Positions 34,996 through 38,560 of a DNA stretch of 64,000 nt are shown here, piece by piece. Below the pieces are notes generated by a model. That model made no database searches, was not told where the DNA came from, and saw only the letters and a program-made list of their open reading frames with translations. Position numbers and translations under genes: made by a program. Every line of letters begins with the position of its first letter. Within the stretch, counting starts at the first letter, position 1. The DNA is from Atopobacter sp. AH10 (GTDB taxonomy: Bacteria; Bacillota; Bacilli; Lactobacillales; Aerococcaceae), in NCBI RefSeq assembly GCF_003664595.1, contig NZ_QXPZ01000050.1, positions 1 through 64,000 on the forward strand, given 5' to 3'.

Positions 34996-35046
34996 TGATA
35001 TAAAATTATTCAAACGTCAACGACGTTTAAGCAAAACAAAAGGAGG
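34996..35046 (+). promoter_or_regulatory. Promoter, palindromic operator and ribosome site of the radical SAM cassette
   Basis: Extended -10 TGATATAAA (TATAAA at 34999-35004) with a weak -35; just downstream a perfect palindrome AAACGTC-AAC-GACGTTT (35012-35028), well placed to bind a repressor over the transcription start; then AAAGGAGG (to 35046), 7 bases before the precursor ATG. Confidence 0.65.
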
Positions 35047-35053
35047 ATAAAAG

Positions 35054-35167
35054 ATGAAGCAACTATCTTTATATGATTTGAAAGCCAAATTAACTATTGA
35101 GACAGGTCAATCCATTCGCAATTGTGGCACAAAAAGAACCAAAAACACTAAATTAATTAGTTTTTAA
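35054..35167 (+). CDS. Candidate RiPP precursor peptide, 37 aa
   Basis: MKQLSLYDLKAKLTIETGQS, then IRNCGTKRTKNTKLISF. It has a strong AAAGGAGG ribosome site. The first half resembles a leader (acidic/hydrophobic, YDLKAKL); the second half is very basic, with one Cys (residue 24) and three consecutive T-K-x triplets (TKR TKN TKL). It sits directly upstream of a radical SAM protein with a PqqD-like N-terminus and an ABC exporter, the layout of ribosomally made, modified peptides. No match to a named precursor class comes to mind. The nature of the modification (thioether from the Cys, epimerisation, or C-C/C-O link) cannot be read from sequence. Confidence 0.7.
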   Translation: MKQLSLYDLKAKLTIETGQSIRNCGTKRTKNTKLISF

Positions 35168-35242
35168 TAATTACTACTTAGTTAAAATAGATTTATTCTT
35201 TTTTCAAGCATATTGTGCAAAGTGATCCAATCTAAGCAACAT

Positions 35243-35280
35243 CTCTTGGCTACGTTTTAATTTTAAAACATAGCCAAGAG
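35243..35280 (+). promoter_or_regulatory. Long hairpin between precursor and radical SAM gene
   Basis: CTCTTGGCTA pairs with TAGCCAAGAG (10 bp), one mismatch, then GTTTTAA with TTAAAAC (7 bp) around a TT loop. No T tract follows, so it is more likely a partial terminator, RNA-processing or 3'-stabilising structure that raises precursor over enzyme level, as often seen in bacteriocin operons. The remaining spacer up to 35581 has no other convincing gene. Confidence 0.65.
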
Positions 35281-35635
35281 TCATTTGCTCAGTTATTAAA
35301 ATCTATTCCTATTACCTATATTTCAAAATACTCCTTTCTATAGATATATGTCATTTATATCATTTTGTTATTCTTTTATTTATCACAAGCTTATTCAAAA
35401 GATTAACCATTTAATACGTTACTACGCTCGGAGGACTTGCCTATATGTAATTGTCTCAACATAAGTACAATCCTGATGCATTCTTAAGCTATTTACATCA
35501 CATTAATCCCTGATTATGTCATACACTTTCTAACAAAATCTTGCCATTTACTAAATCATCACATTAAAAATAGGGGGGCGCATTACTATACTCATCATCA
35601 ACCCAACAGCTTATTTACAATATTTTGGAGAAGAA

Positions 35636-36841
35636 ATGATACTAGATCTTCACAATCATTATTACCTTCTAAATCAGTATCAAGCAAAAATTTTAGCTAT
35701 GATCAACAACAATTTACCCTTCAATAGTATGGTGAATTACTTTAAAAATATAGTTATCGAAGACGATATACAAGCTATCACTACAATTCTTTCTTCTTTC
35801 ATTAAAGACATGATTGAAAAAGAATGGCTAGTAAAAAGTAGTATCTTTACTAGCAAAAAGATATTTGGCAAAAAAGGCTTATATTTCCCAAGAAAAATTG
35901 TCATAGAGTTAACCAATAAGTGTCATTTGCAATGTGTTCATTGCTTTAAAGAATGCAGTCCAAAACTTAGCTCTTCCATTGATTCAGACCAACTCTTCAA
36001 ATTTTTAAATAGCATCAAGGGAATTGTCTCTGAAATCCAAATAACTGGTGGAGAACCCATGATTCATCCTCAATTCAATGCCATAAGTGAATTTGTCAAT
36101 ACAAATTTTGACTATACCTCCATAACAACCACTGGGCATTTTATTAATACCAATAACCTCTCTGTTATGAGTTATTTTGATCACATTCAAATTTCACTAT
36201 ATGATTATGATCCCGCAATACATGATACTATAACCAAGAAAAAAGGAGCCTTTTTAAGAACTCTAGCGGGCATTCAATGTTTAACGGATATTAATGCCTC
36301 TTTTTCTGTCAGCAATATAGTTAGACATCAATTTTTGAATCGATTTGATCAATATATTCAGTTTTTAATCCAGCATCATATTCCTGAACTCTCCATGGGT
36401 TTGCTCAGCCAATTAGGGAGGGGCATCCCTATCCACAAGAAATGGTTGCTTTCAGAAAATGAGCTAGCTAACTTTCAAACTTTGCTACACATAAAAAGTA
36501 ACGAATACGTCAATCAAATAAAGATTCATACGTGGGACGATTCTGCTTGCTCAAGCTTTTTTAAAAATATAGACGGTCAAACTTTATCTTGTGGAGCAGG
36601 TTTATTAGAGTGGACAATCACTGAACAAGCTACTATCAAACCCTGTTCATTTTTCCCAGATTCCCTATTTTCAATGTCTGATTTAACTCATTTTGAAGAT
36701 CTTATCTCAAAAAAACATACTCAATGTATAAAAATGAGAATCAAACACTGGGAACGCGCTTTAAATAAAATTGGCCATTCCACTTCAGCTATATGCCAAG
36801 AAATCTATCAAGCAACACAAAAGGAGGAAGATTATGCGTAA
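35636..36841 (+). CDS. Radical SAM peptide-modifying enzyme with PqqD-like N-terminus
   Basis: 401 aa from the ATG at 35636 (TTTTGGAGAAGAA upstream). The [4Fe-4S] motif CHLQCVHC is at residues 96-103, GGEP at 138-141, and a GRG-plus-Cys C-terminal part (C305, C319-GAG, PC337, C364) looks like a SPASM/twitch domain for extra clusters. The first 75 residues (LDLHNHYYLLNQYQAKIL...) resemble a PqqD/RRE leader-binding domain. The similarity seems to begin before the ATG: the frame is open to 35555 and reads INPTAYLQYFGEE just upstream, so the true start may be an ATT at 35582 after AGGGGGGCG. It overlaps the exporter gene by 8 bases. Probably modifies the 37-aa peptide. Confidence 0.85.
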   Translation: MILDLHNHYYLLNQYQAKILAMINNNLPFNSMVNYFKNIVIEDDIQAITTILSSFIKDMIEKEWLVKSSIFTSKKIFGKKGLYFPRKIVIELTNKCHLQCVHCFKECSPKLSSSIDSDQLFKFLNSIKGIVSEIQITGGEPMIHPQFNAISEFVNTNFDYTSITTTGHFINTNNLSVMSYFDHIQISLYDYDPAIHDTITKKKGAFLRTLAGIQCLTDINASFSVSNIVRHQFLNRFDQYIQFLIQHHIPELSMGLLSQLGRGIPIHKKWLLSENELANFQTLLHIKSNEYVNQIKIHTWDDSACSSFFKNIDGQTLSCGAGLLEWTITEQATIKPCSFFPDSLFSMSDLTHFEDLISKKHTQCIKMRIKHWERALNKIGHSTSAICQEIYQATQKEEDYA

Positions 36842-38405
36842 ATTCTTATTTCTAACCGTTTTAACTTGTATTACTGCTGTATCAACGTTAAACGTGTTAT
36901 TTTCATATCAAATTCAATTTATTATTGACGCATTGGCTAAAAAAGACGTTGACGCTTTTTCAAAAAACATTTTAGTCATGGCTTTTATTATGATTTTGTT
37001 GCTCATTATCGAGTACGCCAGACAATATTTAAATACCTCTTATCTCAATAAAGTAGGCTTAGATATTCACAAAACCATTATTAGTAAAGTATTCCATTTA
37101 GACTTTCGCCAATTCAAAGAAAAGTCCAGTGGCGAATACATTTCCATTCTTAACAATGATATCGATAGAATAAAAACCTTCCATTATGATGCAATCATTT
37201 CCTTATACCAAGGGATTGTGACATTTATCATTGCCTCTATGGCTTTATTTTCACTTGACTCCATCACAGCTATCCTCATTATTTTAGTTTCAGCTTTCCC
37301 TATTTTAATTCCCTATCTGTTTAGGCATAAAACTCGATCAGTTACCAACAAAATATCTGATCAGCAATCCCAATACAACAGCTATTTGAAAGATTTTATC
37401 TCCGGTCTTTTAGACATTAAAAACTCTCATTCCTCGAAGCTATTTGTCGATAACGTTAATAACAAATATAAAGATGTCAATACAAGTGTTCAAGACGAAT
37501 GTCAACTTACCTCACTGATAAACGTTTTAATCGGCTTATTTTTCTACGGTTGTGTTATAGTGATTTTACTTATCGGTGGTCAGCAAGTTTTAAGTGGCGC
37601 CATAACAATCGGTGCTCTAACATCCATTATTGCTTTATCTAACGAACTTGAAATGCCTATCAACCTGATTGCAGACAATTTATCTAGTATCAACTCAGTT
37701 AAGGATATTAAACAAAGTTATGATCATCAATCAAACGAGCTAGTAGATGTAACGCATACAGCCAGCAAGCTAGAAGCATTGAACAGAATCCTTCTACAGA
37801 ACATCTCTTATTCCATCAACGACCATCAATTATTTAAAAACTTTACTTATGAATTTGTCAGAGGTCACAAGTACCTCATTATAGGTAGCAGTGGTAAAGG
37901 GAAATCTACTTTAGCTTATTTACTCACTAAAAACATCGAGCCTGATCAAGGAAGTATTTTATACAATAATCTTGATAGCCAACAACTGAGCTACGCCGAT
38001 GTGCAACAGCATATTGCCTTAATCTCTCAACAATCCATTATATTTACAGAAACACTCCTCAACAATCTACACTTATACCAAGATTTACCAGTCGATCAAA
38101 CTCAAAAATTGTTGCAGCAATTTAACTTAGAGAGTCGTTTTAAAGATCTAGATGAGCTACTCATCGATGATGGCAATCTCTCAGGTGGCCAAAAGCAACG
38201 CCTCCTCATCATTCGAGCCCTATTGCAACATAAAAACTTTATCCTATTAGACGAATCCCTTTCAGGCTTAGATAAAGAAAATTACGACTTGATTGAATCT
38301 TATTTGCTCAACAAAAAAGATCTATGTGTCATTAATATTTCCCATAGACCAACTAATCACATCGAGCAATATGACGCTATTCTTAATTTTGACCAATTAA
38401 ATTAG
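36834..38405 (+). CDS. ABC exporter (fused permease-ATPase), probable modified-peptide exporter
   Basis: 523 aa from the ATG at 36834, preceded by AAAGGAGGAAG and overlapping the radical SAM gene by 8 bases. Six membrane helices in the first 300 residues (type-IV exporter fold), then an ATPase domain: Walker A GSSGKGKSTLAYLL, signature LSGGQKQRLLIIRAL, Walker B FILLDESLSGLD, switch ISHRP. No N-terminal C39 peptidase domain, so it does not cut a double-glycine leader itself. Short for a full half-transporter; probably acts as a homodimer. Gene order implies export of the mature peptide and perhaps self-protection. Confidence 0.85.
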   Translation: MRKFLFLTVLTCITAVSTLNVLFSYQIQFIIDALAKKDVDAFSKNILVMAFIMILLLIIEYARQYLNTSYLNKVGLDIHKTIISKVFHLDFRQFKEKSSGEYISILNNDIDRIKTFHYDAIISLYQGIVTFIIASMALFSLDSITAILIILVSAFPILIPYLFRHKTRSVTNKISDQQSQYNSYLKDFISGLLDIKNSHSSKLFVDNVNNKYKDVNTSVQDECQLTSLINVLIGLFFYGCVIVILLIGGQQVLSGAITIGALTSIIALSNELEMPINLIADNLSSINSVKDIKQSYDHQSNELVDVTHTASKLEALNRILLQNISYSINDHQLFKNFTYEFVRGHKYLIIGSSGKGKSTLAYLLTKNIEPDQGSILYNNLDSQQLSYADVQQHIALISQQSIIFTETLLNNLHLYQDLPVDQTQKLLQQFNLESRFKDLDELLIDDGNLSGGQKQRLLIIRALLQHKNFILLDESLSGLDKENYDLIESYLLNKKDLCVINISHRPTNHIEQYDAILNFDQLN

Positions 38406-38511
38406 CTTTGTCTATCGTTTGCTTATCGAGGTCAATTTCGAGTACGAGCGCTTAAGTTGAAGCTAAGTTTTCTGTTAAATTTCTCTTATTTAAAACAAGA
38501 AGTGTAAAGCA

Positions 38512-38547
38512 AAAAAGAGCTAGTCCTTATATACTAGCTCTTTTTTG
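38512..38547. terminator. Bidirectional terminator between convergent genes
   Basis: AAAAAAGAGCTAGT pairs with ACTAGCTCTTTTTT (loop CCTTATAT); A/T tracts on both sides serve both strands: the exporter (+) and the ABC-2 permease (-). Confidence 0.9.
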
Positions 38548-38560
38548 CTGCCTAATTTGC

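Follow-up and report, generated by a model that had tools for sequence, protein, structure and literature searches.

The 64-kb window, by which we mean the whole stretch of DNA analysed here, carries a three-gene RiPP cassette that we consider reasonably probable to be a "TKN" sister of the streptococcal TQQ RaS-RiPP operons (threoglucin/rotapeptide), its product bearing a Thr29-Lys30 ether and directed at the producer itself. It is a RiPP cassette and not a new class, and its product is probably a novel variation on an established type of growth-controlling peptide. A preliminary description had proposed a possible new RiPP whose precursor fits no nameable class; this was too strong, since the precursor, like the enzyme and the exporter, has homologues in the TQQ subfamily, and what differs is the TKN residue pair and the missing Rgg. 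What the sequence shows is the order of the genes, a core that is conserved, homology for each of the three proteins, and the absence of Rgg; from TqqB we infer the cross-link and where it lies, docking of the leader and its trimming, export of the product, and its activity. We do not claim strict TQQ membership, because the peptide has TKN in place of the TQQ motif, scores 12.4 bits with NF050041 against a cut-off of 50, and lies in a genome with no match to the Rgg model TIGR01716; the absent defining Gln, the low score, and the lack of an Rgg gene also count against the TKN-sister reading itself.

The cassette has a G+C content of 32.5% against a window mean of 39.3% (sd 2.2), the lowest of any 3.4-kb stretch in the window, and most neighbouring genes run opposite to it (Table 1). 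In these respects, the preliminary description held up well: the peptide ORF, radical SAM gene, and exporter gene are all present, the cassette is AT-rich and on the strand opposite to most neighbours, a perfect palindrome precedes the peptide gene, the peptide consists of a leader half and a Cys-containing core half, and the exporter overlaps the enzyme gene by 8 bases and has no peptidase domain.

Table 1. Features of the cassette, in window coordinates
Feature	Position	Strand	Basis or location
Interrupted palindrome AAACGTC-AAC-GACGTTT, candidate operator	35012..35028		Between promoter region and peptide gene
Precursor peptide, 37 aa	35054..35167	+	Core match with G005 and HMM rank
18-bp imperfect hairpin	35243..35280	+	Fold z-score; between peptide and enzyme genes
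Radical SAM maturase, TqqB homologue	35582..36841	+	Identity to relatives, profile match, fold
ABC exporter, TMD+NBD half transporter, 523 aa	36834..38405	+	Pfam and identity to relatives
17-bp perfect inverted repeat with A/T runs	38508..38549		Between exporter and convergent ABC-2 permease gene

The 37-aa ORF, MKQLSLYDLKAKLTIETGQSIRNCGTKRTKNTKLISF, is preceded by AAAGGAGG and contains a leader motif, LxxLxxKL, and a core, CGTKRTKNTK, spanning C24-K33. All ten core residues are identical in the peptide upstream of the related enzyme in the Aerococcaceae MAG G005 (MNILELDTLQDKLLEEIKEGITLGCGTKRTKNTKGNETLQTEQQISNEISTIVENVA), with five of the ten codons differing, all of them synonymously and none non-synonymously. 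The motif CGT[KR]xTxxTK occurs once in the window and in none of 60 shuffled windows, and in each related locus it is found once (twice in Vagococcus), solely at the peptide gene. With an HMM of three streptococcal precursors, the 37-aa ORF ranked first among 741 window ORFs (E 0.0012), and the E value fell to 2.7e-5 once the G005 peptide joined the model. That the ORF arose by chance and the enzyme has another substrate is hardly credible: the 468 bp separating it from the enzyme gene, a longer gap than in the relatives, would favour such a view, which is refuted by the conservation seen in the ten-residue identity, the absence of shuffle matches, and the ORF rank.

Short peptides also lie upstream of the enzyme in S. 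azizii (MVKMNLKNLSSKLLKIKSMPLSGCGTKRTQQTKGNLA), in the Streptococcus genomes G512 and G585 (MSVIEFKKLSSKLLKVSKIETLSGCGTKRTQQTKGWY), in S. sciuri (MIKINFKQLSSKLLKIKVVTSGCGTRRTHQTKRLL), and on a Vagococcus plasmid (MKLEEMNFEPVVMCGTKYTKNTKASPNLEEEMSIEPVVMCGTKYTKNTKASPNLEEISA), the last being 59 aa long with two cores, CGTKYTKNTK. The preliminary description had pointed to such upstream peptides, and to conservation of the 37-aa frame, as tests of its proposal, and both favour it: a short peptide gene lies directly upstream at every intact relative, and the core is conserved. CGTKxTxxTK is the only strongly shared part of these peptides, in which the Cys-Gly opening the core and three Thr are invariant, and the leader motif lies 9-11 residues before the Cys in all precursors except that of Vagococcus. 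At the predicted cross-link site, the window, G005, and Vagococcus peptides read TKN, the TQQ precursors TQQ, and S. sciuri THQ, so that the acceptor Gln of TQQ is replaced by Lys in the TKN peptides. With the model NF050041 ("TQQ cross-linked RaS-RiPP peptide"; cut-off 50 bits), the peptide of S. azizii reaches 86.8 bits and that of G005 34.5 bits. A tblastn search of the 37-aa peptide against plasmids gave no match, although the Vagococcus core is present there, because so short a query cannot give a significant score.

No NCBIfam or Pfam model matches the window peptide above its cut-off, which would favour a RiPP class that is new altogether and has no known relatives. We nevertheless regard such a class as very improbable, given the full-length enzyme and exporter homology and a core common to curated TQQ precursors; the shared core and enzyme homology refute it, unless the product bond proves unrelated.

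By analogy with TqqB, the LxxLxxKL leader would be bound by the N-terminal leader-binding region of the enzyme, which would then take the alpha hydrogen from the residue after the middle Thr of the core, allowing the oxygen of that Thr to close onto the alpha-carbon and form a six-membered alpha-ether ring. The pair joined is Thr-Gln in TQQ and would be Thr29-Lys30 here, with a predicted loss of 2.016 Da: the calculated mass of the 37-mer is 4227.32 Da unmodified and 4225.31 Da modified, and that of its Glu-C fragment TGQSIRNCGTKRTKNTKLISF is 2352.27 Da, or 2350.25 Da if modified. The leader would be trimmed by host proteases, the exporter having no peptidase, and the ABC protein would export a product that may, like the threoglucins in S. 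suis, serve as a self-directed signal or growth inhibitor of narrow range. Threoglucins inhibit S. suis, the species that makes them, at 500 nM, and they also change its tolerance of antibiotics (PMC13361665).

The enzyme ORF read from ATG 35636 (35636-36841) matches Pfam Radical_SAM (1.4e-9) and carries CxxxCxxC at C96/C100/C103, in agreement with the preliminary assignment to the radical SAM proteins. Two further attributes fared less well. The PqqD-like N-terminus gained no support, as the Pfam PqqD model does not match the enzyme. Of the SPASM-like Cys, what stood is a set of C-terminal Cys; the Pfam SPASM model does not match either, and only three are invariant (C319, C337, and C387, with all numbering from ATG 35636), in a SkfB-like pattern that suggests a single auxiliary cluster, as in SkfB, and not a complete SPASM domain. 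Over its full length, the enzyme is 41-43% identical to those of G005, S. azizii, and G512, so that a TqqB-type enzyme adjoins the window precursor just as its homologues stand beside TQQ precursors. Its structure model, for which one plasmid-record protein row was left out of the input, has a middling pLDDT of 61, a point against the TKN-sister reading, with the N-terminus modelled at low confidence, and its closest fold match is SkfB (6efn), followed by SuiB, both of them RiPP maturases, in keeping with the TKN-sister reading. The nearest NCBIfam enzyme models are AlbA (73.5 bits, cut-off 850) and SkfB (64.5 bits, cut-off 300), both far from being reached.

AlbA and SkfB are sactipeptide maturases and, together with the invariant Cys-Gly at the start of the core, they would suit an enzyme of that type, which would link Cys24 by a thioether to an alpha-carbon (e.g., that of Lys30 or Asn31) instead of forming the Thr29 ether; the conserved Cys could thus be the real cross-link donor, which counts against the TKN-sister reading. 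Such a maturase seems unlikely to us, since the three Thr are equally invariant and the TQQ precursors possess the same Cys, their reported bond being nonetheless Thr-Gln (PMC13361665), so that conservation of the Cys does not require a thioether.

The start of the enzyme is a further point against the Thr29-Lys30 ether reading. The profile match spans 35588-36832, and homology sets in some 16 codons before ATG 35636, near 35588, where NPTAYLQYFGEE matches G005 NPNAYYHYFGNQ, yet no in-frame ATG, GTG, or TTG occurs between 35588 and ATG 35636. An SD-like AGGGGGG precedes ATT 35582 and ATA 35588, the only likely starts of a full-length enzyme, and ATG 35636 is preceded by its own GGAG. The enzyme may therefore use a rare start, start inside the first strand, or have lost its start, and it may be poorly expressed or slightly truncated in this genome. 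A decaying locus, making little or no modified peptide after loss of the start codon, would account for this, and since both G074 and S. sciuri carry plainly broken copies, loss is common in the enzyme family. Decay is, however, rather improbable in our judgement, as the 419-codon enzyme frame is whole with all conserved cysteines intact, exporter and core are likewise intact, and both candidate start regions retain the ribosome-binding-like sequences just described.

The exporter ATG lies within the enzyme gene, the overlap covering 36834-36841. The protein matches Pfam ABC_membrane (7e-27) and ABC_tran (3.3e-25), with no Pfam C39 peptidase domain, and reaches 6e-46 with the NCBIfam model GggC, far under its cut-off. 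Identity to the exporters encoded next to the related enzymes of G005, S. azizii, and G512 is 39-43%, with 41% to S. azizii and 43% to G512 over nearly the whole protein.

Several non-coding elements accompany the genes. The palindrome has 7-bp perfect arms around a 3-nt spacer (17 bp in total), is the only window match with up to two mismatches (0.16 expected), and is absent from the related loci examined; it is a candidate site for a regulator other than Rgg. The gap between peptide and enzyme genes holds a hairpin with a fold z-score of -5.0 (0 of 200 shuffles as stable) and no U-tract on the + strand; the hairpin may restrict read-through, so that the peptide is produced in excess of the enzyme. 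A repeated element was ruled out, the hairpin being single copy in the genome, and searches for a known RNA in this spacer returned sub-threshold noise only. The inverted repeat downstream of the exporter gene is a probable two-way terminator for this gene and the convergent ABC-2 permease gene. As a separate observation, the ribosome-binding regions of the peptide (35029-35047) and exporter (36810-36828) genes are identical at 18 of 19 positions (AAGCAAAACAAAAGGAGGA), as if one had been copied from the other.

The system is rare and patchy. Across 76 Aerococcaceae genomes, we found one intact enzyme relative, in MAG G005 (42%), and one broken remnant, in G074. A scan of one genome per species recovered Streptococcus azizii (42%), G005 again, and the broken copy in S. 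sciuri; Streptococcus yielded two further intact copies, in G512 and G585 (58% identical to S. azizii), genomes that appear to belong to the S. suis group, judging by their Rgg gene and the C-terminus of their TqqA. A more distant enzyme (33%) is encoded by the 6.7-kb Vagococcus fluvialis plasmid p12B2_p3 (NZ_CP081476.1), and no further relatives turned up in 395 genomes sampled at order level or 399 sampled at class level, hence our description of the distribution. In G074 (L004 1400-3399 / L040), the peptide has gone and little of the enzyme is left, while the frame of the exporter is whole and may have been retained for immunity or some other function. In S. sciuri (L007 4734-5990 / L017), an intact THQ precursor lies next to the broken enzyme gene, the frame of which continues into what is left of the exporter.

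Named by reading the sequences, the genes next to the cassette are pncB and ABC-2 permeases in the window; in G005 they resemble CvfB and pyruvate-kinase genes, S. azizii has a PsiE-like gene, S. sciuri has trpA and a gene like that of homoserine dehydrogenase, and the Vagococcus copy lies among plasmid genes. Such differing neighbours fit horizontal spread, and the horizontal gain put forward in the preliminary description is probable. A clean empty site was not obtained, the sister genome G001 keeping tagO-nadE-pncB with other genes beyond pncB. A phage or mobile-virus origin was rejected, as no viral contig carried a close enzyme or exporter relative or a TKN core, and phage records gave remote radical SAM matches only. 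Two plasmid loci of other kinds were also noted: one in Macrococcoides bohemicum (L042 1-3777) encodes a PqqD protein, a radical SAM protein, a 41-aa-scale hypothetical protein, a second radical SAM protein, and an ABC transporter, and looks like another RiPP cassette, and on Clostridioides difficile p_TW11 (L043 1282-3821) a pair of neighbouring radical SAM genes with a 59-aa ORF after them may form a RiPP cassette.

In the enzyme tree, the window and G005 join (98/99) apart from the streptococci, and Vagococcus lies on a long branch. Since the outlying Vagococcus precursor also reads TKN, this may be an older state than TQQ, the tree root being not secure. It is quite possible, if short of probable, that the TKN group forms a separate rotapeptide branch with a Thr-Lys alpha-ether, spanning Aerococcaceae and Vagococcus, lacking Rgg, maybe ancestral to TQQ, and including a double-core plasmid precursor. 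The TQQ/threoglucin family is listed in a review only for S. suis and S. azizii (PMC13361665), and the loci described here extend a chemically unusual RiPP family, with aliphatic Thr-X ethers made by radical SAM enzymes, to two other families of lactic acid bacteria. The natural acceptor-site variants Gln, Lys, and His make acceptor tolerance of the enzyme directly testable, and the Vagococcus plasmid supplies a natural two-core precursor. Our search of the open-access literature, with subscription journals outside its scope, found no published work on TKN cores.

Among known systems, the TQQ RaS-RiPPs (threoglucins/rotapeptides; TqqA, TqqB; NF050041; S. suis, S. azizii) share with the window the order peptide, radical SAM enzyme, ABC exporter, the LxxLxxKL leader, the core CGTKRTxxTK, and 41-43% identity in both enzyme (full length) and exporter. 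They differ in having TQQ instead of TKN, in an Rgg-like gene, directly upstream in G512/G585 (L015/L016), and in their host, here a member of the Aerococcaceae; moreover, the palindromic site and hairpin are not seen in the streptococcal loci. The p12B2_p3 cassette, annotated only as a hypothetical protein and a radical SAM protein, resembles that of the window in its TKN core, enzyme, and exporter, but its precursor (L018 3730-3909) holds two identical cores in tandem, its enzyme is more distant, and its plasmid has its own HTH gene. SkfB and AlbA provide the closest solved fold and the closest named models for the window enzyme, whereas their precursors are unrelated and their bond is a thioether, not an ether. 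In the enteropeptins (KGR RaS-RiPPs), a radical SAM enzyme likewise closes a six-membered ring between neighbouring residues, there as a Cys-Arg alpha-thioether (PMC10373908) and here, as predicted, between Thr and the residue that follows it.
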